Assembly (NCBI GenBank): GCA_038087015.1
Contig: JASBNA010000057.1
Coordinates: forward strand, 226,130 to 290,129
Reading direction: 5' to 3'
Origin: Cerrena zonata
Lineage: Eukaryota; Basidiomycota; Agaricomycetes; Polyporales; Cerrenaceae
Length of the DNA stretch: 64,000 nt
Below the pieces are notes generated by a model. That model was given only the letters and a program-made list of their open reading frames with translations, searched no databases and was not told the DNA's origin. Made by a program: the position numbers and the translations under genes. How positions within the stretch are numbered: the stretch's first letter is position 1; each line of letters opens with the position of its first letter. This document shows positions 47,412 to 64,000 of the stretch, in pieces.

Positions 47412-48100
47412 AGAAGGAGATTTGTAAATAGATTAGTGTAGACTTTGGAGGATATATTGAGTGAGAGTGTAAAGTGATATTTGAAGATAAATATAGAGTG
47501 AGATGATTATTAAAGTGGATAGAGAGAGAGTGGAAGTATTATGAGTTTTGAGAGTATATAGTGAAGTGTGAAGGAAGATAGAAGTTGAAATTAAGTATAG
47601 TTGTAGGTGTATTTATTTTAGGGTTAGCTGTGAGACTGGTAGTAATTAGGGTTAGCGGTTAAAACAGGAATATGTTTATAAGGTTAGCCGTTAAAACAAA
47701 GATGTGTTTATAGGATAAAGTTAAAGTGATGGATAGGGTTAACCATTAAAATGGATGTGTATTTAAAAAATGGGTTGAGGCCGCAGAAAAAGTTATTATA
47801 TAGTAGTATATTAATAGAATATTGTAATAGCAATAGAGTTAGTAATTAATATATATATAGATTTTAGTATATTGTTGATAGAAGTTATATATATATATAT
47901 ATATATATACAGGATTAAAAATATATATATATATAAAAACACAATATTTTGTTTAGGGTTATGAGTGTTGTTCTTTCTCTCCCAGGGAGATCCTAGGGAG
48001 ACCCTAGGGTTGGGCGCCTAGTGGGTAGGGCAGGGCGTGGAAGGGGCAAGGCGGGGTGGTAGAAAGTAGGTGGTTCAAAGGGTGTGAAAAATAGTGTGCT
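47412..48100. other. AT-rich spacer with telomere-like GGTTAGC units and (TA)n
   Basis: No gene. Repeated AGGGTTAGC and GTTAAAACA units occur between about 47615 and 47770, resembling degenerate telomeric repeats, followed by (TA)n tracts at 47887-47945. Confidence 0.6.
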
Positions 48101-48117
48101 TTGACGGACAGTGTGTA

Positions 48118-48855
48118 AGAATAGTATGCGTCTTGGACGAACATTGTGAAGGGGGAAATAAGTGGTACGAAGGGCGGAAGAGGTGCAGGTGCAAAGTGTG
48201 CTGTAGACAATGTGTGTAGACACCGAAATGTGCGTGTACAGAGGTATGTTAAACAGTATATGGCATGTGAAAATGGCACGTGAAAAAGATACCTCTTCGG
48301 GAAAAGAGAGCGTTGTACGGAAGTGCGCAAGTATGCGTCCTAGACGCACACTTGCAGCATAGGCTTACAGAGAGGAACAGATCGTGTTGTAGGGAAGTGT
48401 GCAGGTGTGCGTCCAAGACGCATGCCGGCAGCATGTGCTTACATTGCATCACAACCGAACCATTTTGCCGCAGGTGTGAGCATTCGAGGGAGCTTGTGAC
48501 CTGGCCATACATCTTCTCCCCAAACTTTGCACGTTCGTGCAATGTTTGGGACTGGGAGAAGATGTATGGTCAGGTCACAAGCTCCCTCGAATGCTCACAC
48601 CTGCGGCAAAATGGTTCGGTTGTGATGCAACGTAGCACATTGGTAGCGGGCGTGCGTCTTAGACGCACACCTGCACACTTACTCGATATCTTAGGGTTAG
48701 GGCTAGCTTAGGGTGACTATGGGGGGGGGATGCGTCCTGGACGCACGGGTGGTGATACATGTTGACTAGAAGTGATGGACTGAAATATGGCTTAGTTTGG
48801 AAGTAGAGACGCTCACTATCATGAGGGGCGTGCGCCGGTGTGCGTCCAGGACGCA
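48118..48855. repeat. Palindrome cluster 1 (six copies of TGCGTCCWGGACGCA-type)
   Basis: Copies at 48118 (degenerate), 48334 (CCTAG centre), 48408 (CCAAG), 48653 (CTTAG), 48731 and 48841 (both exact). They flank and overlap a large inverted repeat and an interstitial telomere-like tract (TTAGGGTTAGGG at 48691). Short frames encoding VRPGRTP or CVLDAH here are just the palindrome read in different frames. Confidence 0.9.
48444..48630. repeat. Near-perfect 187-bp palindrome
   Basis: Left arm 48444-48533 and right arm 48536-48630 are reverse complements almost without interruption, meeting at TTGCACGTTCGTGCAA. It could extrude as a cruciform. Arm differences are few, implying recent origin or ongoing conversion. 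Confidence 0.85.
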
Positions 48856-49066
48856 TGTCTAAGAGACTTCTACGGCATTTGACATGCGGATCACTGTGAA
48901 GATGGCTAAGACTGCTTAGTACGGGATTAGCTGATGGCACGAAGTTCAAGCGATGGCTAGGTGGGTCTATTAGGGTTCTAATTGGTTATGATTGATGTCA
49001 GGCCCGCCTCTAAGATTATAAGCGAGTGATCGGAGCGGGAAGAAATTCGCTCATAAAGCAGAGACA

Positions 49067-49128
49067 ATGCGGGGAAGGGCAGATCTCTCCTTCTCTCAAC
49101 TCTCATCACTTAACAACAGCAACAGCAG

Positions 49129-49161
<33 letters not shown>

Positions 49162-52100
49162 AATGCCTTCTCCTCCTATCGCCGTCGCTTTTCTGATGTT
49201 CACCGCAGATATGCGCCGCATCGTGGGCGTTGAGGATGCGCCTTGGTGCTGGCCTACGTGGCAGAGCCGTGTGAAGTCCCTAACGGCGCCTTGGGTAGAA
49301 CCGGCTGAAGGCGCGACTCACATTTTTGGCTGGACTCAGAATCAGATTCGCGATGCCAAGGCGTATGTGGACGAGTTCTGCAAAAAGCCGGTGAGCCAAC
49401 GTCTCACGTTTGCGCGCACGAAGGGGGACGACTATCACGAGGCGAGGGACCTCCTTCAAAGGTCATTGGTCAAGGCGTGGGACGAGACGTGGGGACTGCC
49501 TCATTTGATCCGGACAACTTTGACGGCGATGGGGAAGGGCCGGACAGCCCTCTTGTCTGAGCATGGAGATCGACAAGTAAGTGTCGAAACAAGGTCAATG
49601 TACAGGTGAGGCGCTGATAGCTTGTATGTAGCTGCCTCCGATCGAAATAGCCGATTTGATGGCGGTCAAAGAGCACATCGCCTTTGAGCTCTTCGGGGCT
49701 GAGGGTATGAAGAAGAATTCTCGCAACAAACCGATAATCCAGGTCCTGGAGCTTATGAATAATTGGTTCTATCAGATCTGGCGTGGAATTACGATGAAGG
49801 TCAAGCGGGACCGGGCTGCCATGGAAAAGCTGGAGGTAGAGACAGCGGCATTGCTTAAAAGTAAGTAATGTGTTAAATACATTAATTAGGCTACTAATGA
49901 CATGGTATACAGAGTTTGAAGGGGAGGGTCGTAACCCAGCGACATTCAGGGCGTACCTCAAGAAGTCTAAAATGTTGATGAGGTACTATCAGGACTTTGG
50001 CGACAAACCCAGCATTGAGGCGATCGAGGAGCACCGCACGAAATTGGACAACATTCGGAAGGCGTTGGCAATGAAGGAGGACGGGACGGCCGAGGAGGAC
50101 ATTAGTGAGTAGTGTTGTCAGAATGAGAGAACACACCTAATGTAACATATGCTTAGAACTGAGTAGTGCTTTGCGAGCGTCTTTGGTGTGGTTGAGCACC
50201 CAGGCTCAACATGATTCAATCTCGGATGAGGTCTGCGAGCAGATTCACTCGCTGGCAAACGACGAGTTTGAGTTGCCTGCACTTGACCTGGCATCGGTGA
50301 GCCTGAATGAATGGGAAAGCGGCGTCGAGGCATGGGAGAAGTTGCAGGTGTCGGAGCTGTATCGTTACTTGGGCCTGGATGAGGAGAAGCCTCTCCCGTT
50401 CTTCAACAAGTACATTGACTTGGCGGATAGCCGGGATGCATGGGCCCATCCTGCACTTGTGGAGGCGGATGAAGGGAACCCTAACCGAATTCTATTGCGT
50501 CCTCACTGGCATCAATTGGTGGGTATGTGTAAGATGTTGGACTGTCTGTTCGATGGGAAACCGGTGCTTCTAATGGATGGGGTGGGGTTGGGTAAGACGT
50601 TACAAGTCGTCGGGGTGATTGCGATCCTTGCGTATTATCGGACGGTGAAGAAGGAGAAGGGGGTATTCCCTGGGGCATTTGGTAAGTTAAAATGACTTTG
50701 TATTGAGAACCTACTGACATAGGTACTTTTCATAGCAGAGCGATTGTTCCAAGAGGGGGATAATATCCCGGAGCTGCCATCGATGATTGTGGTGCCACCG
50801 TCCCTGCGTCAGCAGGTTGAGACCGAGCTGCATCGGTATCTTACTCGGGGAGTGTTCGATATCATGCTCTATGAGGGCACGGTAGTGAGCAGGAGTGGGT
50901 ACTGGGAGCATACATGGGATCGGTCCGTTCTGAACGAATGTCACCGAATTCTCCTTGCTACTGCACCGGTGAGTGTTGGGACCGACTGCGAGATTATGGG
51001 TGGTGGGCTGACAGAATAATGCAGGCTATCACCAGCGATGGCTCCAATGCCTTGGTTTACAACACATTAAGCCCCCACATTCCCCCGACTAGGACTGGTA
51101 TGTTGATGGACACTATCTACCAGAAGGATTGGCTGCTGGCGGTTGTTGACGAGATGCACTGTGCGCGGAACATGAGTCGTACTTTCTGGTCTGTTTGGGG
51201 TCTGCAGATCCAGAGTCGGGGAGTGATTGGAATGACAGCGACACCAGTGATGTCGAAAATCCGGGTAAGTCAAAGTGATGTTGTAGCGAGAGTATGGATT
51301 GACTGATAGGGGATATTTAGGATCTGTGGCACATTGGCCGAATGTTGGGTATCGACGGGTTTGACGAGCAAGATGAGTATGTGGAGATGAACAAGGAATC
51401 GAGTCGTGCATTACGTGCCGATCGACGAGTGCGGGAGGTGAACATCGAGGCCTTTGTGCATGGAGAAGCTGATGGCAATGCGGTTGGAAATGTCGACGAG
51501 GTGAATCTGAAGTGGATGAGGAAGATGCGGAGGTTGTTCCAGGGATACATCGTGCGACGGAGCGAGGAGTCACGAAACTGCGACGGGAAGCCACTCATGG
51601 ACTTGAAGCAATACCAGCTTGTGATCCTGGAGCTTGAGCTCTCAGGTCGGGAGAAGGAGGAGGTTGAGGCTCGACTTGCTGGGCTAGGTGATCTGCACAC
51701 TGCACGAGCAGATGGGGAGGTAAGTGAATTGTCTATTGGGCGATGCGATCAAAGGCATGCGTCCTGGACGCACGCTGGGCACCCACCTACTCGTGGAAGG
51801 CGCGCGTAGGTGGGGGTGTGGTGTGCGTCCAGGACGCATGCCTTCCTGACATGGCTACTATGCCTTGGTCAATATGACCGTGTGCCCGGTGTGCGTCCTG
51901 GACGCACACCCTCCTGACACGGTCACGTTGCCTTGGTCAATATGGCCGTGTGCCCGGTGTGCGTCCAGGACGCATATAATCAATCGCAGTGGGGTGTATG
52001 CTAATTATTTTGTAGGCCTTCTACCTTGGTATCAGGCGAGCTGTTGTCCATCCAGATTTCTTCACCACTCGCGAAAACCAGCTTCGATTTGACACGCTCG

Positions 52101-53699
52101 AGGACTGGCAGAGCAACTCGTCGACCAAGCTCGATGTCATGGCTAAAGTGGTGCAGTGGCACCTCACCATGGACAAACGTTCCCCAATGAAGACCGTCGA
52201 TGGTGTGCTCGTCGATGGGGATGCTACTCTGCTTGACAACCCTGACGGTCTCCCTCGAGACAAAATCGTCGTCTTCTCGATGATGGTGGTCAACACGCGG
52301 ATAATATCTCAAGTAAGTTTGCTCTCAAATTACTAGCTCCTTGCTGATATCGGTCAGGTCCTCAACGTGCATGGTATCAAGCATGTTTCTATCCATGGGT
52401 CTCTCTCTCTCGCAAAGCGGACTGCTCTGATCGAGCAATTTAAAGCGAGTGACGAAAACGGTCCACGTGTGCTCATCATCTCGTCGGTAGGAACAACGGG
52501 GCTCAACTTGGCTTGGGCAAATATCTTGCTTTGTATCGTAAGTATATTCCCCTGTCTACATGGATGCGGAGCTAAAGTGTCCATATCTTTAGGATGTTCC
52601 CTGGTCGTGGCAGGAACTGGGACAGATGATCGGTCGTCTGTGGCGATTGCCGCAGAAGAAAGAGGTGATCGTGTACCAGCTCGTCGCTCTTGGTACGGCG
52701 GATGTCTTCCTCAGCGATAACTCATTTGGCAAGGGCCGGATGTTGGAGGCATTCCAAAAAGCGAGTCCCAAGCTCCTGGCATTGCTGGGCGGCGAGGATC
52801 AAGAACCGCTCGGGAACGAAGACGACGATTCGGAAGACGACGTCGAGGATACTTCTACGGTGAAGAAGAAAGGCAAGGGTAAGAGCCAGCCAAAGAAGGC
52901 GACGAGGACGAAGAAGGGCTCTTCAGTAGTGTCCAGCGTTGACAAAGGAGAAGGATCGTCGGCCATGACGAAAGCACCGGTCCCCCGCCCCAGGAAGAAG
53001 ACCACTGTCGTCAACAAACCAGAGGGATCGGCTACAGCTCAAGCCTCCACTCTGGCTGAAGCATCGACTACAGAGCAAGCACCGGTTCCCTCTCTGTCTG
53101 CCAAAGGGAAGGGCAAAGAGAAAGCGCGCGAGACTGAGGAGGACGAGGAGGATGAGGAGGATGAAGAAGAGGACCAGCCCCCAGCGGCGACTCACACTGG
53201 ATCGGAGGTGCAGGCTGGACAAGCGTCCCCTCAGCATCAACAGGAGCAGTCTCAGCGAGAGGAGGATCAGGATGGGGGTGTGCCTCAGGCTGAACAACCT
53301 GGACAAGCAGCGTCTCGTTCTGAGCGTGAGGATGAACCTGCCCCTTCCCCTTCTGAACCTCTTTCTTCCTCCCCTTCTTCAGAGGACGTCAATATGCAAT
53401 CCCCGTCTCCGCCACCAGCACCTCGTGCTCCCTTATCAACGTCAAGCAGTAAGTAGTGGCTTAACATTTATGTCATTTACCACTAACAAACAATGTTTTA
53501 GCTCGGAGCGATGGGCGTGTGGCCAGGGCTACTAGCAAGAACGTCAGATATCACGAGAGCAGTGAGTCCGACGTCCCTATGGCTCGCAGTAAGTGTGTGT
53601 ATATGTCAACGGTATGTATTTATTAATATAAAAGCAACAGAGCGTAGCCGAGGTCAGGGTAGGGGCCGCGCTGGACCAAAGGGTCGGGGCCGCCGTTGA
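49067..53699 (+). CDS. SNF2-family ATPase, subtelomeric (paralogue A)
   Basis: Twelve exons in one frame: 49067-49576, 49632-49860, 49913-50104, 50157-50681, 50739-50968, 51025-51264, 51321-51719, 52016-52312, 52358-52537, 52593-53448, 53502-53588, 53635-53699. Length is 1,269 residues from the first ATG, or 1,237 from the ATG at 49163, which follows a CAA-rich leader and has better context; a TATA-like TTATAAG lies near 49015. Motifs: DGVGLGKTLQ (Walker A, about residue 451), VVDEMH (motif II, DEAH variant, about 602), GMTATPV (III), SSVGTTGLNLAWA (V), QMIGRLWRLPQKKE (VI). The C-terminus has acidic runs and ends in an RGRGRAGPKGRGRR AT-hook-like tail. SNF2 ATPases move nucleosomes or translocate on DNA; this one's substrate is unknown. 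The 296-nt intron 7 is unusually long and holds four palindromes. A degraded paralogue lies at 58083-63070. Confidence 0.88.
51758..51974. repeat. Palindrome cluster 2, inside SNF2-A intron 7
   Basis: Four exact TGCGTCCWGGACGCA copies at 51758, 51824, 51892 and 51960 (spacings 66, 68, 68), embedded in 68-bp repeats that include TGCCTTGGTCAATATG. All lie within intron 51720-52015. Confidence 0.92.
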
Positions 53700-54631
53700 A
53701 CTCCTCCGCCTTTTTTTCGTACATTGTTGGAACCAGGACACTCGTCGGAAATTGTGCATCATGCATAGTTTCCATATCATTTGTAAGTAGCTACACTACG
53801 TAGTCTACTCGTATCTACTCGGACGTTGTTGATGATTTTCGGACATCTCTGCTTTATTGACGACTTTCGGACGTTTTTGCTTTTGCTTTATTGACGGCTT
53901 TCGGACGTTTTTGTTTACTTTCGGACATCTCTGCGTATTCACGGCTTCCAGACGTTTTTGATGATTTTCGGACATCTCTGCTTATTCACGACTTTCGGAC
54001 GTCTTTACTTTCTGCTCACTATGCGATCCCTTTCTATGCTTATCTTTTTGTTACTTCCTATGCTTTGCGCACAATTCTCTTTCGCCGGTCTCACATTTTC
54101 ATAAGATTCAGACGTTGTTACTTTCATGTTGTTCAAGCTGGTCTTAGGACGTTACATATGCAAGTACAAAAAGTACAAATTGATGATTAGTTATATGCCT
54201 TCAAGATGTGTAGAGTTGCTGTCGCTGATGAAGAGGTACATGAGAGAGATACAGCGAGGACTACAGTTCAATACAATAATCAAATTATAATGGCTACCAT
54301 ACACCAGATAAGTGCGGTGAGCGGTGTGCGTCCAGGACGCACACCTGTAGACAGGATAGGATTGAGATCATATAAATTTACGATGTCACTAAGTCTTCAT
54401 TTGTAGCGGAGGTTTTCTGAGAGTTGCAGATGATACGTGGTGTGGGGTGGGTATGCGTCCAAGACGCACAGGTGTCGTTATCGTCTGTGTATCATTTGCA
54501 AGTATATTTGTGAGTATAATTTCCAAGACTGACCACTCGGCAACCAACCACATGCATATTCTGCAATCTCAGAGTCACGCAAAAAGAAGCAGAGGGACTT
54601 GCGATATTGAAAGCATAGATGTACAGAAGGT
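53700..54631. other. Intergenic with TTCGGACGTTTTT repeats
   Basis: Irregular short tandem repeats of TTTCGGACGTTTTTG and TTTCGGACATCTCTGC fill about 53815-54010. Beyond them lie two palindrome copies. A 99-codon frame at 53891-54190 reads through the repeats and is not supported as a gene. Confidence 0.6.
54327..54468. repeat. Palindrome cluster 3 (two copies)
   Basis: Exact copy at 54327-54341, extended to GGTGTGCG..CGCACACC, and a CCAAG-centred variant at 54454-54468. Both lie downstream of gene X (minus strand) and downstream of SNF2-A. Confidence 0.9.
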
Positions 54632-55497
54632 TTACGTATACAAAACTACATTATTGTCAATGTCTTGAGCCCAGATCCAGACCAGCAGCTCGACGATATC
54701 AGGGCGCAGCCTGTCATATACCCACCTCAAGTGAGCGCTGCTACTCAGCACCTCAGCCAATAGTGAGTCCACTCCAGACACCTCGCGCATCATCCGTGTG
54801 GCCTCAAGCTCGAGAGCTGAGGCGAATTTGGCAGTCGCGAGAACTGCAGCGTAGTACAGGGCAAGAGACCTGTTACGCTCAGCGGTCTGGATGCCGCCAA
54901 AGTTCCGCTCTCGCAATGCTACCCAGTACCGTCTCCATCGCTCTACTCGTTCTACGACGTGCTGGGCTGCTTCGATGCAGAGCCGCAGGAAACTAGCGTG
55001 AGCCACTATTATGATGAGGCAGTTAGAATGTCAATTGCGATAGAAGATGGAGATATACTAAGTGCTGGAGGGCGCAAGTCGCCCAAATGTCTGGCTTCCT
55101 GAGTGTAATAGACGTTTCCTGAAGTACTGTTAGTGTGTAAACTAATACGTAAGGGTAAGAACATACCTATGAGGTTGGGCATTACCCTCCTGAAAGCAAA
55201 GGCCTCTTCGAGGCGTTGGATCCTTCCATTGTCTGCACAAATGAATAATTGTATAGGGCGAGTTTATCATGAGGCACTTACGTTGGAGAGTGGCGCCTTC
55301 CTCCACGATGAGGAGGAAATCGCCATGATCTCGGGCGAGGCATACGTTGTACACCAATGCCGGGCCCCATTGAACCCGGGCCGGAGTCTGGTATATATGA
55401 ATCAGACGATCGTCGACAATACGCAGGTGCGACTTACAGTGTAGTTGGTGACCAAGGGCAGAGCCCTGCATTCCTCGACGGTGGTTGGGTGTTGCAT
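54632..55497 (-). CDS. Gene X, unknown (divergent paralogue of X')
   Basis: Minus strand; ATG at 55495-55497 (MQHPTTVEECRALPLVTNYT), then exons separated by canonical introns: VQWGPALVYNVCLARDHGDF (about 55295-55390), NGRIQRLEEAFAFRR (about 55180-55245), GNVYYTQEARHLGDLR (about 55070-55125), and a long helical last exon (ASFLRLCIEAAQHVVERVERW.., 55006-54632). About 230-240 residues. No family recognised; the last exon is alpha-helical with Arg/Glu-rich amphipathic pattern. Exon order and several positions match X' at 56587-57462 (for example VERVERWRRYW against LERVLKWKEIW, and ERNRSLALYYA against EKNRAYLLFDA), so the two are diverged paralogues transcribed away from a shared inverted-repeat region. 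Confidence 0.6.
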
Positions 55498-55568
55498 ACT
55501 TGAAGCAGGGATATGATGAGAGGTGAGATGTGGAGGAGGTAAAATACGGTATTAGGGATCCCACCCAC

Positions 55569-56563
55569 CGTCTCTCAAATATATCTTTTGTGGTTGTAAA
55601 CTTACCATTGAGCTGGTCAAGAGCTCATTTCGTTATTGCGCAGGCCTCGATGCGTGTTGGTAAGCCTATGATCAATGAGTTATGAGTTCTAAGCTCTCCG
55701 TGAGTCAGGAAACGTACGGTCATCAGGATATTTGGGTCGAAGAATCCCGCTCGGGAGCCAAGTGGGGCTTCTAACTCTCGGGACCGTGCTAATTAGACTT
55801 TTGAGTGACTCCAATATGAAATGATGTTTGGCATAATCGAATACGTTCGGGAAGAAGTGTGATTGGATAAGGCCGAGACCGCGGGCTAGACAGAGGTCCG
55901 CATTTAGCCGAACGTCCGCCCTGGGGCAGGTGTGCGTCCTGGACGCACACCGCTCCCTGGTCCACTTGAATTTCTCGCAGATAGGGATCTGTGTGCCGCT
56001 GTGCGTCCTGGACGGATACCCGCCTGCACAGTACTATGTACCGATACCTCCTGGCCAGCTGATCTGCACCCCGCTGTGCGTCCAGGACGCACAGCGGCAC
56101 ACAGATCCCGATCTGCGAGAAATTCAGGTGGACCAGGGAGCGGTGTGCGTCCAGGACGCACACCTGCCCCAGGGCGGACGTTCGGCTAAATGCGGACCTC
56201 TGTCTAGCCCGCGGTCTCGGCCTTATCCAATCACACTTCTTCCCGAACGTATTCGATTATGCCAAACATCATTTCATATTGGAGTCACTCAAAAGTCTAA
56301 TTAGCACGGTCCCGAGAGTTAGAAGCCCCACTTGGCTCCCGAGCGGGATTCTTCGACCCAAATACCCTGATGACCGTACGTTTCCTGACTCACGGAGAGC
56401 TTAGGTTTCATAACTCATTGATTATAATCCAGTCGTGGCCTACCAACGCGCATCGAGGCCCACGCACTAAGGGCTCCTTAGTCTTGTCCGCAGGCTAGTC
56501 GAGATCAGCCCCTAACCAGCGCAATGGAAAGTTTACAACCACCAGAGATATATTTGAGACAGT
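55569..56563. repeat. About 1-kb inverted repeat between genes X and X'
   Basis: Main arms 55643-56016 and 56077-56460 are near-identical reverse complements; a shorter outer pair (about 55569-55600 and 56531-56563) extends it, with unequal insertions between. The 55-60 bp centre (about 56017-56072) is not symmetric. Four palindromes sit symmetrically in it (55933 with 56146, 56002 with 56077). Confidence 0.9.
55933..56160. repeat. Palindrome cluster 4 (four copies in the inverted repeat)
   Basis: Exact copies at 55933, 56077 and 56146; the copy at 56002-56016 is damaged at its last bases (GACGGA). T-centred copies lie in the left arm and A-centred ones in the right, as expected for mirrored arms. 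Confidence 0.92.
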
Positions 56564-56586
56564 GAGCAGTGTGTCGGCTTCAACTC

Positions 56587-57462
56587 ATGGAGCCTCCCTC
56601 AACAATCGACGAGTGTTACAGCTGCCCGCTTTTGTCCTATTACCCGGTAAGCAGCACCCATCATTCTCAGACGTGCATCCTACTGAACAGCTATCAGGCA
56701 CCAGATGAAGCAGTGCTTGGGGACTACCACACTGGCTTTATGGTGCGCTATCGCCATGTGTCTGACAGGCCTTGTGATCGAGTTATCGAATTCGAGGAAA
56801 GTATATGTATTATGAGTATGTTTCAATTGCATCTGATTTACCTATTCAGGCTAACGGTTGATCGATGATCTCTCACAGAAGATGGTGCCTGGTCTAGGTT
56901 GGAAGGCACCTTTACTCTTTGGAGGCGCATCGACCATGCCACAGGCGAGTCCTGTTTACTCAATAATCAAGTCTCATGTACTTATACTACGCTTAGCGAG
57001 GCAACGATACACCGATAGAGAAGCCGTAAGTTCTGACGATCCGCGTACCCCGGGACGAGGTATGTTTTTGTAACTATCTCCTTTGCCGGAGGTGACTTTG
57101 CTCCAGTTGCACATGCAGCTTATTTCAAGCTCATGCATGAGGCGGGGACAAATATGCTCGAGCGTGTACTCAAGTGGAAGGAGATCTGGAACCAGTGGGA
57201 AGCAGCCGACTTCGCCGGGGTTCGGAGGCAGGAGAAAAACAGGGCCTACCTCCTGTTTGACGCAAGCCTAGTCACCGCAGAGGCATATAGCGAGTTCCTC
57301 TTCAAGCAAGAGGACAAATGGAACCCAAAATACAGTGGGCTGGCCTCGGTGCTCGCCGACCTCACTGAGTTGGCCACTCGCCTCGTCTCAACGAAGGACG
57401 ATCTCCTTGATTTGCTGCGATCAGTGCAAGGCACATGTCCTCGCTCACAACTAGTTTGGTAG
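56587..57462 (+). CDS. Gene X', unknown (divergent paralogue of X)
   Basis: ATG at 56587 (MEPPSTIDECYSCPLLSYYP), intron to about 56697, exon APDEAVLGDYHTGFMVRYRH.., exon DGAWSRLEGTFTLWRRIDHA (about 56880-56945), an exon around RQRYTDREAVSSDD (about 57000-57060), and a helical last exon DFAPVAHAAYFKLMHEAG.. (57092-57462, stop TAG). About 240 residues. The intron after DHATG may use a GC donor (GCGAGT). Aligns by eye with gene X along its whole length. Function unknown. Possible further coding sequence downstream (about 57545-57660, KPKRSRRHINALCLG) may be a later exon. Confidence 0.55.
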
Positions 57463-58082
57463 TCCTGTAACTATGTCTTGCCGTATGTCTCTCTTACGAG
57501 ACTTTCTCAATATAATTGTAGCCGTTGTCTGAGATATATAGACCGAGTGTTATGCTGCTAAGCCTAAGAGATCACGCCGACATATCAATGCACTCTGTTT
57601 AGGAACATACGATCTTCCATCAGGAACATTGTGGTCCGATATTGAAACTGATGTGTACAAGGTACGGTTGCTAGGGTTCAGCAGCTTAAGTCGCATGGAA
57701 CAGCCAATACCCCATATTAGGTGCACCCGTTGTTCTCCATCCATGTGCTCGATATGCAGATGGCACCATACACCGGTGTGCGTCTTGGACGCACATCACG
57801 CACATCTTGGTAATATCATAACATTATCTGCAACCACGCAGGACGGGGAAATATTCAGGATATCCTGTCCCTGATGCTAGTTCAGGACGCGAAGGTGGCA
57901 AAACAATATCTCTCTTTGAGAAGCAAGTCATTGGGCATCCGCTAAGTGGTGCAAACAATTTGGCACTTGCTTGTCCGATCCTAGGCAATCCCTTAAAAGC
58001 TCGTGTAAATCATGACCATACAAATATTCTCCACACATCCTTTCCGACGCTGTCAACGTGTCTGCTATGCCTACCTTCAGCT
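57463..58082. other. Intergenic with one palindrome copy
   Basis: A CTTGG-centred variant palindrome lies at 57779-57793. An 81-codon frame at 57629-57874 reads through it. No independent gene supported; the first part may belong to X'. Confidence 0.5.
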
Positions 58083-61000
58083 ATGGATCAAGCTTGCTTA
58101 ATATCACTGCTGAATTCAAGGCAACGCACTGTCTCTGTAAATACTCCCGTTGATCCTAACACACCCTGGTCATGGCCCACCTGGCAAAAACGTACAGGTT
58201 TGCTGAACCCCCTTGGGAAGCTGTCCCTCCTACCCAGAAACATCCCTTTGGCTGGACAGAGCGAGAATGCAGTCTGGTCAAATGTTACGTTGACTCATTC
58301 TGCAAGATCCGTACACGTTCAGAACGCCTGGAGTTCAGCAGAGCTAAAGGTGATAACACCGCCGAAGGCAGAAAACTTTACACACCAAGCGATCAACCTC
58401 TCCTTCAAACGGGAAATGGAAACTCGTGGACGCTATGCATCGCTGTTTTCGGGACTCAAAAAAACCTTCGAGTCCATACTTGCAGATCACGGTAGTCGCA
58501 ACGTACGTTCGAATCCTGCATCATCATCGGATGCACACTTATACCCTCATCAGCTACCTGAGATATTCGAAGAAGACCTTGGTGAGGTCAAGGACCTGAT
58601 CGCGGGACAGCATATTTGGGGAGAGCGGCAAGAAGCCCGGATCGTCTAAATCTACCCCCGAGGTCAGGGAAAGCTATTGATTATTGGGTATCGAACTTAT
58701 GGCATGCCATGACCTCCAAATACCGTCGTGATGGCGTCAATATGGACAAGCTTGCGATTGAGGTCGCCGAGGACTCTGCATAGTGTGTATACAATCCTAC
58801 ACATCTCCTTGTTATGTTGTATTTGTTATTGATCATCTGGTTCTGTAGAATTCGAAACCACGGATCGCAACATGGCAACATTGCGTCTCTTTCTGCAGAA
58901 AAGTGGCAGATTGATGCAGTATTATCGGCAATTCGGTGATATTGAAATCTCAGGCGCAGATTCATGAGTATCGCGATAAGCTCACAGACATACGCCTCGC
59001 CCTCTCGATTGATATGCAAGGCAAAACAATCCACAGTACGTACATGTTATCACATCATCTTTCTCACATCTGACAGTTGTCGTTGTAACAGAGATAAGCC
59101 CCGCACTTCGGCAATCTCTGATGTTGTTAAGCAAACAAGAAGATGTCGATCGTATGGATGCTGAGATCGCGGAGGAGATTATCAATCTCTCCAAAGACTC
59201 GGTTGACATTCCCGTCTTGACACTCGACAGCATCGACTTGAAGGACTGGGAAAGTGGAGTGGAGAAATATCAGACCATGAATTCGGAGGCGATCTGTGCC
59301 CTTTTAGGTATCTCTCCGATGGGACTCTCCCTCACTTTAACAACTACATTGATGCTGTCAGGTATCCGCGATCCCTGGATTGATGATTCCCTTCACAATG
59401 AAGCACTCGATGACCCCGATCGGAAGCTTCTCCGTCCACATTGGCCACCAGCTCGTAGGCATGCTTCAGATGCGAGACAGTGCTTTTGCCCGGAGGACCC
59501 ATCCTCCTGATGGATGTGTGGGTCTTGGCAAGGACGTTGCAAGTCATCGGCGTAATTGCACTTACTGGCATACTACTGCAAAACTACACAGGATACCGGT
59601 CAATTTCCCGGCATAATTCAGTGTGTTTTTTTAGTTCAGTTACTGTGCCTAAGCTGATGGAGCTATCTTGTTCAATAGAGGGTAAAAAGTTCCAGGAACA
59701 TGACAACATTCCTGATGAGGCCTGTTTGCTGGTGGTTCCCCCCTGTCATTGAGGGCGCAGGTCGCAGTTGAACCTTCAACTGGTATCTGAAACGCGGGAA
59801 GCTTCGATGTGTTGCTGTATGACCGAGGGGCGCTGAAGATGCCAGATTACTGGCACACGACCTTCCACACTGTCCAAAGCATGCACACCCGGCCACGTAT
59901 CCGATGATGGCCACTATGACGGTTAAGCTTTTTTGGCCAGATCTCCATCAGATATCATCCATCTGACCATGTGAACCCAAGGCACTGACCAGCGACGCAA
60001 TTAATTGCCTGCAGTATGCATCCACCAAGCCCAAATAATGCTCCAAGGTCATTGAGAACTGTAGTCCACTCTCTTGAGCGGAGAAATGGCTCTTTACGGC
60101 CAGTGGACGAGGTGCATAATGCACGCAACGTTGGTCAAGAGCTACTGGGCAGTCTGGGGCTTGCGACAATGTAGCCAGCGGCTTTGTGGGCATGTCGGCA
60201 ACTCTTGTCCTCACCCGTCCCCACGTAAGCACCTTTACTTGAATCGTTGACTGTATATATGCTGATTATGCTGATAACGCTGATGACAGGATCTTTATCA
60301 TATTGGTCGCTTATGGAGATCAAGGGATTCGATACGCATTGGACTACAGACGATGATCCGTGACATGACCAAAGCGCAGTCGGTTGGATCGAACGAGCGG
60401 GATGAACGTGGCTGTCTGGAACGTGGACTTCTTCCGTGGGCAGGAGGAAGCACAACATCCCGGATCACGTTCGCCCAGTACAGTATGCATTGGGAGATGA
60501 ACAAGATAGCGAGCGATGTTCGAAGGCACATTATTCGCAGGGACTCCAACTCAGTGACGTACAACGGCAAGTCGATTATCGACATCAAACCTTACAAGTA
60601 TGTTGCTCTGGAGCTAGCGTTGACGCCCAACTGAGCAAGACGGGCTGGACGAAATCACGACAGCATTTGAGAAGAAGAGCCAGCAACAAACGAACCGAAG
60701 GCCAGGTATGTTATGATTTGTCATCTCCATATCTGAGTCGAGCATCGGTGTGCAGGAGCAGGTATGCGTCCAGGACGCACACCTGCTGCTGCCCCCGTGA
60801 TACGAAAGAGACAGCAACTTCTCTGTGCTCTCTGCACTCGGTGTGCGTCCTGGACGCACACCTGCTGCTGCCCCACACATACATCGCTCGTGTCCGTCAG
60901 GCCTCTGCGCCCGGTGTGCGTCCAGGACGCACGGTATTCTTATTCTCTTGCTTCTGCTCATCTCCTAATCAACAGCACTTCTACCTCGCTTTCCGCAGAC

Positions 61001-63070
61001 GGTGCCTGCATCCCGACTTGCACACCGGGCGTGAGACAACCCTCGCCTTCAATACGCTAGGAGATTGGGAGGCTAACCCTTCCACCAAACTCGCCGCCCT
61101 TGTGCGCGTCCTCACCTATCATCTCAAATCTGACGCTCGCAGCCCCATGACCACAGTTGACGGCGAACTCGTAGATGGACCGGATGAGCCTCTCACTACA
61201 GGGATAAACCTACCGTGTGACAAAGATTGTGGTCTACTCGCCTTTGTCATTAACACAAGGTATATCAAGCAAGTAAGTGCTGCTTCGTAGTCTCACGGTT
61301 CTATCGAGCAGTCTCATCCCGGTGTAGGTCTTTAAATGTCAACGAGATCCAGTATCTGTCGATCGACGGTGGAAGGACTGTTGCGAGACGCACCCAAGGT
61401 TATTCACCAGTTCCGTACTAGCGGGGTGGGTACGGTCCTCGCGTGCTCCTCGTTTCCATCGTTGGCACTACAGGGACTAAATTTACCATTCGCCATATCC
61501 TCGTGTCTTTGGTATGCCATTCCTTTCCTCTTGTGATCGCGCGCTGAACTTGATCGGCAGGACGTCAACTGGTCTGAACAAGATGAGAACCAGCTGCGGC
61601 GGTCGTTTTGTGGCGCCAGAACCAGCCCATGACTGTAGTCTTTTACCAACTCGTTGCCCGCGGTACCTCCGATGTCTTTCTCAACAACATTGCCTTCGGC
61701 AAAGGCGTGATGCTCAAAGCTTTTGTATCAGCCCCCAAAGGGCTTCAGAAGTGGTATCCATCCAGATTACATTGAGGACAACCTGCAGAAGACGACTTTG
61801 ATTACGCGCTAGCCAAGGATAACGATAAGGACGAGGATGAAGATGAGACCCCAAAGACCAAGGGAAAGAGGAAGGCCAAAGCGAAGAAAGCAGCTCAAAT
61901 ATGCGAGGATCAAGACAACACTCAGGCTTCAGAAGAGCAAGAAGAAAACCAAAGCGAAGGCTAGACCCACATCAACTGAGACAGCCGAGTCTTCAACAAA
62001 TGTGTCGACTGAGGCCGCCAAACAGCGACAGCTGATCCTTCCAGTCCAAAAATAAGGGTAAGCGGACCACACCAGCGCCACGCAAGAAAATCACCAAGAA
62101 AGCTCTCGCTGCTGCAGCTACTGCTGATACTGTGACCGCATTAGTCTCCGGCTGCTCCTGTTACAGCTGATCCATTACTGGTTCCCACTATTCCGACGCC
62201 CTCTCCATGGATCTACCCTTAGACACTCCATCCCTGCTTCGTGCCACAATATCTCAACCAGTCCATCTGCAACAATTGCAATAGTTGCTGCTGCCAGGTC
62301 TAGCTGCTCCTACATCAGATGAAGGACCTACCACAACGCCTTCTGCCCCCTTCTCCCTGCCTTAAATCCCCCCACATTCGGAATTTACCACAACACCCGC
62401 TGCCCCACCCGCTAGCTGTGCTGTCACAATATCCTGCTATCCAGCGTCCCTTTGGAAGAACAAACCACAGTTACACCCCCTCGTCCATGGGTCCGAATAC
62501 TGCTCTGGTGAACACATCCCCCCACGCTCCCCGCAGGGGCCTTCTTTCACCTCACCTGCTATACTCATCGAGCAATCACTGGATTCTCTGTCTGGGGCTG
62601 GCAAGCAAGAATTCCTCGAATGGAGGATGCCACAACCACAAGCCCGACCATCACCACCTTCCGGATGACCCGATAGCTGATAACGTAGCTATGTCTCTTG
62701 ATGACCATCGGATCCCACTCCGCCAATCTTTGATGATGAGTACGGTTTGACAGCCCTACTCTAATCACAGCCCCATTCGTAGTGGCCAGCCCTAGTACCA
62801 TAGGAGGTGTGTATCTAAGCCTATTATTCAAATATGTACACTGACTTTCTTATAGTGCCTACACCTACTGGGCCAAGCGGAAAAGCCCCATCAGACACAT
62901 TGTCCAGTGATGAAGATGAACGCGGTCGTTCCTCGACCGAGGGACAAGAGGAGAGACGCGCTTATGCCATTCTCAGTCAAGAGAAAAGCCAAGGACCCAC
63001 GATGTTGAAGCTGGCTCCGGACTCACACAGGAAGAGGACTAGGAAGGAAGCACTGAGTGCTGCCCATTAG
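58083..63070 (+). pseudogene. SNF2-family ATPase paralogue B (degraded)
   Basis: Collinear with SNF2-A but full of frame breaks. Matching blocks: PNTPWSWPTWQKR (58160, against APWCWPTWQSR), FGWTERECSLVKCYVDSFCK (58250, other frame), ISPALRQSLMLLSKQ and LKDWESGVEKYQ (59100-59280), DPDRKLLRPHW (59415), HFYLAFRRRCLHPDL (61000), MTTVDGELVDGP (61150) and LVARGTSDVFL (61650). The Walker A block at about 59505-59540 is split by indels, so the ATPase cannot be read in one frame. The acidic/basic C-terminal region and final exon (62860-63070) are still open. Its intron at about 60712-60998 holds three palindromes, at the same place as in SNF2-A. I infer a dead duplicate of the SNF2 gene, closer to the telomere than the intact one. 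Confidence 0.8.
60765..60931. repeat. Palindrome cluster 5, in the SNF2-B intron
   Basis: Three exact copies at 60765, 60844 and 60917, spaced 79 and 73 bp, separated by CACCTGCTGCTGCCCC-type sequence. The intron corresponds to SNF2-A intron 7. Confidence 0.9.
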
Positions 63071-63913
63071 AGACGTCTAAAATTGACTCTTTTGATTTAT
63101 ATGCCCCCCTATGTAATATGTCTTTTCTTATGATGTATGAAAATGATATGATTATGCACCGTGCTATTTAGACGAGAGGGGCAAGCGTAGTCCTCCATAT
63201 CCACCCTCACAGAGAGAATCATTTGTGGGTCTGCAATTGTGCATGCATGCTGCATAGCTACAGCTGGAACATCGTCATATATATCCAAGGTTAATCACAT
63301 GATTTTCATTCTGCCGTCTAGGATGACGATAATAACTCTCATGACGCACACTCACATTAATCAATCAACACGGGTTTGAATTAGATTGCCAACAGCAGGG
63401 ATTACACTGTGCTGACTGTCGAGCGCCTGTAATTAACATGTGAAAACATTCAAAAAATATAGGTCTTTGTGCATGTAGTTACGTCTGGTGCGCCAGGCAC
63501 ACCTGTGTGCGTCTTTGGACGCCACACTCACATACAATCTGCAACACGGCTGAATTATCGGTGTTGCGCTGGCGCCAGTGTGCGTCCAGGACGCCTACGC
63601 TCACCTCTCAATATCGGCTAAATCATGACACCCGTCGCATTCTAGGCCCCAACTGTGCGTCCGGGACGCATATGGAGCATCACTGTAACTCTAAGGCTAA
63701 TAATCTGTCCGTGCACCGCGGCATTTGAGACCACACGCATCAATATTCATGATATCAAAATCAATATGTTACCCTACAGCCAGTGTGCGTCCGAGACGCA
63801 TATATCGTAAATCCCTTGCTCTCAAGGTACATAATATATTTAATCAGCCCGCCCCTGGTCAGTACTGCACCCTTACAACTAAGATACAGGGGCCTCTATG
63901 GGCTCGTGTTTTT
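63071..63913. other. Telomere-adjacent region, no gene
   Basis: AT-rich sequence with no supported open frame; two frames of about 70 codons overlap palindromes. It contains the last palindrome cluster and ends in a T-run just before the telomere. Confidence 0.6.
63508..63800. repeat. Palindrome cluster 6 (four variant copies)
   Basis: Copies at 63508 (indel-bearing), 63581 (last base changed), 63656 (CCGGG centre) and 63786 (CCGAG centre), about 72-130 bp apart. All deviate from the exact 15-mer, unlike clusters 2, 4 and 5. Confidence 0.8.
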
Positions 63914-64000
63914 TTAGGGTTAGGGTTAGGGTTAGGTTAGGGTTAGGGTTAGGGTTAGGTTTAGGGTTAGGTTAGGGTTAGGGTTAGGTTAGGGTTAGGG
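63914..64000 (+). repeat. Telomere repeats (TTAGGG with TTAGG and TTTAGGG variants)
   Basis: Runs to the window end. Mostly TTAGGG with several TTAGG five-mers and one TTTAGGG. G-rich strand 5'->3' toward the end marks the right chromosome terminus. Confidence 0.97.

Follow-up and report, generated by a model that had tools for sequence, protein, structure and literature searches.

Why does one short palindrome recur about two dozen times in the last 16 kb of a stretch of fungal DNA, with nothing comparable in the 48 kb before it? The stretch, hereafter the window, comprises 64,000 nucleotides (nt) at the end of contig JASBNA010000057.1 (C57) of the polypore Cerrena zonata, positions 226,130 to 290,129 of the forward strand. 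We find that the palindrome is real and strongly non-random, and that duplication of the subtelomeric module in which it sits explains its abundance but not its placement and persistence within that module. Judged by its sequence, the module is Y'-like, an element at the chromosome ends of this polypore that carries helicase genes.

The palindrome has the consensus TGCGTC-YNR-GACGCA, with a middle that is mostly CAG or CTG, bases Y..R beside the centre in 26 of 26 sites, and a weaker outward extension, GGTG..CACC. When TGCGTCCWGGACGCA was sought with at most 3 mismatches, the 64 kb gave 24 matches, against a mean of 1.21 and a maximum of 5 in 100 shuffles. All but one of these (23 of 24) fall within 48127-63800; the remaining match, at 1927 with 3 mismatches, is background, and the rest of the window is at chance level. 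A scan with the outer arms added a palindrome with an extra base at 63508, which brings the copies in the module to 24: 13 exact copies of TGCGTCCWGGACGCA, 10 near matches and the one with the extra base. Classified by their arms, 20 are perfect, 3 have one arm mismatch, 1 has the extra base, and none has two arm mismatches. A first-pass annotation of the window had counted about 24 copies in the last 16 kb and none in the first 48 kb, had named the 13 exact positions and had called for a comparison with shuffled sequence; the counts are borne out, the 13 positions are all correct, and the enrichment is large. The annotation had also extended many copies to GGTGTG..CACACC. The inner part of this extension, GGTG..CACC, is real and only partial: the four bases flanking the core each agree with the consensus in 65-78% of cases (54 half-sites from 27 sites, some of them from other contigs). 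The edge of the core is sharp, with mismatches at 4 of 324 core-arm positions and at 61 of 216 adjoining positions; the sites in this comparison were chosen by their core (ascertainment), and the outer-arm scan nevertheless gave no excess of half-decayed sites.

The module and the palindromes outside its genes are listed here; the first three groups, the single palindrome and the last group come from the mismatch and outer-arm scans.

47953..63912, no strand: Y'-like subtelomeric module, which begins at a remnant of telomere repeat and runs to the TTAGGG array at the end, delimited by blast against 12 contig ends, by junctions and by flanks
48127..48667, no strand: palindromes 48127, 48334, 48408 and 48653, in the innermost piece of the module
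48731..48855, no strand: palindromes 48731 and 48841, upstream of gene 1
54327..54468, no strand: palindromes 54327 and 54454, downstream of gene 1
55667..56426, no strand: inverted repeat with 362-nt arms, palindromes 55933, 56002, 56077 and 56146
57779..57793, no strand: single palindrome, upstream of gene 2
63508..63800, no strand: palindromes 63508 (with the extra base), 63581, 63656 and 63786, downstream of gene 2

If the palindrome marks chromosome ends, copies elsewhere in the genome should be found near contig ends as well. In the 55.5-Mb genome the exact 15-mer has 157 copies and its reversed-pattern control none. Counting all centres, there are 157 + 26 + 64 + 12 = 259 arm-perfect sites; the reversed controls for these patterns gave 1 match, where simple arithmetic leads one to expect about 3. 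As many as 257 of the 259 lie at most 41 kb from a contig end, on 17 contigs, so that the subtelomeric confinement proposed from the window alone holds genome-wide. About 240 of the 259 are in copies of one ~16-kb subtelomeric module, and 17 lie just past its outer end on C35, C92, C141 and C146 (for C92, C93, C141 and C146 short pieces were read, and module membership was taken from site spacing and helicase matches). As for the two sites far from ends, C2:2280117 has surroundings unlike the module and is probably a chance occurrence, and C9:1053701, 82 kb from an end, lies within a relic that is 93% identical to window 47955-48679 and in which three of four palindromes have an extra arm CpG transition relative to the window. 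The annotation had named duplication of one longer repeat as the explanation that would undo its case. Because the copies sit in near-identical modules, module duplication accounts for the genome-wide count, but not for two dozen positions inside one module, and the question becomes why there are two dozen per module.

The module itself is a near-identical repeat at many ends. By blast, 12 other contig ends match the window end, 6 of which hold just the inner ~2 kb of the module; identity across the long blocks of these alignments is 97.0-99.8%, and it is 94.2% for C8 and C35 in their outermost block. In an alignment of the seven long copies (C57, C5, C8, C11, C35, C37 and C51), C11 is 93-95% identical to the others, which are mutually 98.5-99.8% identical. 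The inner boundary, AGG(G)TTATGAG with TTAGGG-like bases, is found on seven mutually unrelated flanks, and the 492 bases to its left are unrelated among the seven long copies and the C9 relic; one further flank, which reads CAGGTTATGAG, is common to C16, C22, C38, C50, C88 and C129. At the outer end, C57 and C51 pass into TTAGGG repeats and C8 and C35 run on into other sequence; telomere repeats were observed at the ends of C57, C51 and C11 only.

Could the palindrome be a tiny mobile hairpin that inserts at new sites, as the annotation had suggested? Its many positions have mostly unrelated flanks, as the annotation had also noted; the neighboring pairs 51824/51892 and 55933/56146 depart from this, being tandem or inverted duplicates inside the module with similar flanks. 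The spacers between palindromes, 11 of 17 of which are 51-64 nt long, are likewise mostly unrelated to one another; S12 and S16 are two versions of one spacer, and the next clearest likeness is that of S11 to S12/S16, in the same intron. The palindrome would also fold well, its 28-mer forming a stable single-strand hairpin (-12.8 kcal/mol, z -5.1). A mobile element should, however, leave copies away from chromosome ends and empty sites where it has not inserted. There are almost no such copies, one of the two arm-perfect sites away from contig ends being in the module relic, and no empty site in otherwise intact flanks was found at 23 positions in the seven module copies. We regard insertion by a mobile hairpin as very unlikely.

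Evidence for long-term maintenance of the palindromes comes from the two genes that the module encodes.

49163..53699, plus strand: gene 1, an unbroken model of 12 exons and 1235 amino acids (aa), with SNF2-rel_dom and Helicase_C
51720..52015, plus strand: intron 7 of gene 1, 296 nt, with palindromes 51758, 51824, 51892 and 51960
58067..63070 (approximate ends), plus strand: gene 2, a second SNF2-type helicase gene, placed by tblastn and frame-broken in the window copy
60706..60975, plus strand: homologous intron of gene 2, ~270 nt, with palindromes 60765, 60844 and 60917

The gene 1 protein is 100% identical to QCA50_014658 of Cerrena zonata. A full-length gene 2 protein (record P0002, 1386 aa) is recorded on a contig of 124,866 bp, a length equal to that of C93, and is 43-45% identical to the gene 1 protein. 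Intron 7 is the long intron of gene 1, whose other ten introns are 45-57 nt. The same holds for gene 2 in C35, where the gaps between tblastn blocks are ~49-68 nt and the homologous intron is ~259 nt (gap sizes that exclude introns within the first and last large blocks). The gene 2 intron has three palindromes in the window copy and in the C93 copies. The two introns align locally with a score of 72, which falls to 24, a value reached by 2% of shuffles, when the 15-mers are masked, and to 15, against a shuffle mean of 17.5, when the 23-mers around the palindromes are masked. The residual score of 24 indicates that part of the extension is also common to both introns. The palindromes thus appear to be the sole detectable sequence that the homologous introns share, which agrees with the annotation's idea that the motif itself is selected or spread. 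Each gene is also preceded by a palindrome, ~0.3 kb before its start codon, and followed by others ~0.4-0.8 kb downstream. The simplest reading of these matching places is that the palindromes predate the split of the two genes and have outlasted the surrounding noncoding DNA.

What might have kept them there? We tentatively favor, at somewhat less than even confidence, the idea that the palindrome is recognized by a symmetric DNA-binding factor, probably a dimer; a site for a dimeric protein was also among the annotation's candidate roles. Each half-site would read RGACGCAYRCC, with two half-sites arranged around one free base. The putative site would belong to the helicase-carrying element, standing on both sides of its helicase genes and within one intron of each, and selection would maintain it while the spacer DNA drifts. 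The site would probably determine the chromatin state or the expression of the element, much as Tbf1 and Reb1 sites may do in yeast subtelomeres. A side effect is that each palindrome has homology to all the others in either orientation and can form a hairpin, through which template switching or recombination at short homologies could invert, duplicate or delete spacers and centres.

Several observations weigh against such a site. A general factor's site would be expected to occur elsewhere in the genome, and the palindrome does not. Across the seven copies the motif shows 16 changes in 300 positions, a higher proportion than the 146 in 6163 found in other noncoding DNA, and its CpGs change about as often as others (9 of 40 vs 56 of 286). 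A test for selection on near-identical copies, in which a constrained motif would vary less than its noncoding surroundings, thus gave a negative result. The CpG figures likewise lend no specific support to the methylation-nucleation role that the annotation had listed. Half-site strengths do not compensate for one another (correlation 0.06, 54 half-sites), and the arms outside the core do not covary, with 92 pairs observed and 91.9 expected over 26 sites. Finally, the centre triplets are more alike within clusters of palindromes than between them (p = 0.006): CWG centres make up 14 of 15 in clusters in and around genes and 1 of 10 in other clusters. This clustering by location points to local homogenisation.

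The motif changes are mainly CpG transitions, centre flips and changes at the neighbors of the centre; at the remaining eight motif positions, 20 sites show no substitution where simple arithmetic predicts two or three. C37 has three one-base indels in the gene 2 intron sites. Pairing of extension positions 1-8 is high at positions 4 and 8 and low at position 1; the first outer pair is A..T in 0 of 26 sites against ~2.5 expected by simple arithmetic, a weak signal on which we do not rely. We argue for long-term maintenance from the intron comparison and the sharp core edge, which together point to the motif itself having been maintained.

The same variation suggests an alternative in which the palindrome has no function: template switching and short-tract conversion would homogenise its arms and the dispersed palindromes, and the spacers would drift because they have no homologous partner. 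In favor of such concerted evolution, the segments between palindromes are rearranged among module copies, as read from assembled contigs, in which assembly error is possible. When module copies are cut at palindromes, the spacers behave as units, and one segment is inverted as a whole.

51758..51838, no strand: 81-bp segment made up of palindrome, spacer and palindrome, whose orientation in C11 and C51 is opposite to that in C57 and C5

Before inverting, this segment has 22 mismatches in C11 and 21 in C51; after inverting it has 1 and 0, and its flanks differ very little (1 mismatch in 80). C57, C11 and C51 have one S9 unit, C5, C37 and C8 have two, and in C35 the unit is doubled on both sides; S7 units are absent from C8 and from an inner C93 copy, and C141 has six sites in tandem with similar spacers. 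The centre of site 48408 changes from CAA to its exact inverse, TTG, in C51. Template switching also predicts A<->T flips of the centre bases, and these are found at 5 of 20 sites, compared with 19 of 6759 A/T columns elsewhere; C11 and C51 have four of the five in common, so that not all are independent.

There is also a precedent for such changes, since template switching at inverted repeats of yeast is described in PMC8604942 as homogenising arms and inverting spacers. The likeness lies in a spacer inverted between perfect arms with its flanks unchanged, a pattern that we find both in 51758-51838 and in the loop of 48440-48634; unlike the yeast cases, one arm sequence is here common to many separate sites of one module. 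Together with the clustering of centre triplets and the failure of the motif to be less variable than other DNA among near-identical copies, these rearrangements make concerted evolution without function a serious rival, though one that we consider less likely than a binding site. It leaves unexplained why palindromes stand at matching places in and around two old paralogs, and the arms outside the core do not covary. Moreover, the site-specific centres CTA (48334) and TTA (48653) are stable across the seven long copies, which implies that conversion between sites is not frequent.

A related possibility is that a dedicated recombinase recognizes the palindromes and flips or multiplies the cassettes between them. 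Symmetric sites do bound the inverted segment and the duplicated or lost units. But 48440-48634, a near-perfect hairpin with 81-nt arms, has its loop inverted in C37, C51, C22 and C16, and also, by cutting copies at palindromes, in C38, C50, C88 and C129; this loop flips with no palindrome at its ends, which indicates that ordinary template switching at inverted repeats suffices. No recombinase gene was found in the module in a search that was not exhaustive, and we give this explanation the least credence of all. We had also considered an inversion in C92 as one that ends at palindromes (segment 56002-56091, 97.8%) and dropped it; the inverted piece is the loop of the inverted repeat with 362-nt arms, and where the inversion ends can therefore not be located. 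A broader version, in which the palindrome is a working part of a subtelomere-specific system of micro-rearrangement that flips, multiplies and removes cassettes between chromosome ends, at fixed places in a helicase-carrying telomeric element and perhaps with the element's SNF2-type helicases or a dedicated recombinase, seems to us improbable.

The palindromes could instead act as structured RNA, either as a hairpin in transcripts or as fold-back arrays that feed small-RNA silencing. This would fit their intronic and flanking positions and the long fold-backs with 362-nt and 81-nt arms, as well as 51753-51844, which folds as DNA at -44.2 kcal/mol (z -11.1). Pairing within the core cannot be tested, as the core arms hardly vary; the outer arms show no overall covariation, Y..R beside the centre needs no hairpin, and tRNA and Rfam scans of 47900-64000 gave no matches. 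We think a role as RNA quite unlikely.

Returning to the binding-site reading, the module can be compared with chromosome-end elements in other fungi. Y' elements of Saccharomyces cerevisiae carry a helicase gene. With their subtelomeric antisilencing regions (STARs) they resemble the Cerrena module in being a subtelomeric repeat next to telomere repeats, with a helicase gene and many short-motif sites. The Cerrena module is unlike Y' in that its helicase genes are SNF2-type and have introns, and in that its motif is a palindrome, which is not known to bind a protein. Yeast STARs contain Tbf1 and Reb1 sites (PMC3060084). The telomere-linked helicases (tlh/TLH) of S. pombe, Ustilago, Magnaporthe and Agaricus are similar in that a helicase family occupies many chromosome ends; in S. 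pombe the tlh genes contain heterochromatin elements of the dg/dh type (PMC8466458), and the subtelomeric helicases of Agaricus, and of the fungi cited alongside, are RecQ-like (PMC7473861). Gene 1, by contrast, matches SNF2-rel_dom and Helicase_C in Pfam, and its protein has no RecQ family match in Pfam at E 0.001. Because the Cerrena helicase is SNF2-type, we do not assign it to the RecQ-type telomere-linked family. The 15-mer, in either form, was not found in literature text, and neither motif nor element was recognisable in the titles and abstracts of literature on subtelomeric helicases, palindromes and the Cerrena zonata genome.

The locus matters as a Y'-like element with a SNF2-type helicase pair at the chromosome ends of a polypore, in which two old paralogs appear to have retained one short palindrome at corresponding places, amid noncoding DNA that has changed beyond recognition. 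If a factor binds the palindrome, it would offer a way into the marking of mushroom subtelomeres; without such a factor, it would be a natural case of palindromes that homogenise themselves through replication errors.

Some further observations concern the module and its surroundings. Of 57 exon changes among the seven gene 1 copies, 49 are C>T or G>A and many lie at CpG, the pattern that methylation of cytosines at these chromosome ends would be expected to leave. Telomere-like repeats occur at the inner boundary (47953-47966) and again 0.7 kb inside the module (48691-48714), and the piece between them is the sole part that survives as the C9 relic; the module looks as if it had been built by successive additions at a telomere. 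C16, C22, C38, C50, C88 and C129 end at the same base within gene 1 (~window 49939), perhaps an assembly break in the repeat. Two divergent open reading frame (ORF) regions with similar starts lie in 54600-57500 around the 362-nt inverted repeat, which is centred near 56047, and there is distant tblastx similarity beyond that repeat. Past the module, C35 continues into a distal segment (L013 2746-8041) with more palindromes and ORFs, among them a 274-aa ORF with a weak DUF3716-like cysteine cluster (E 0.0039, below the Pfam cut-off). In the inner window, 59-base stretches at ~20414 and ~31574 are identical, which hints at a larger duplication there.

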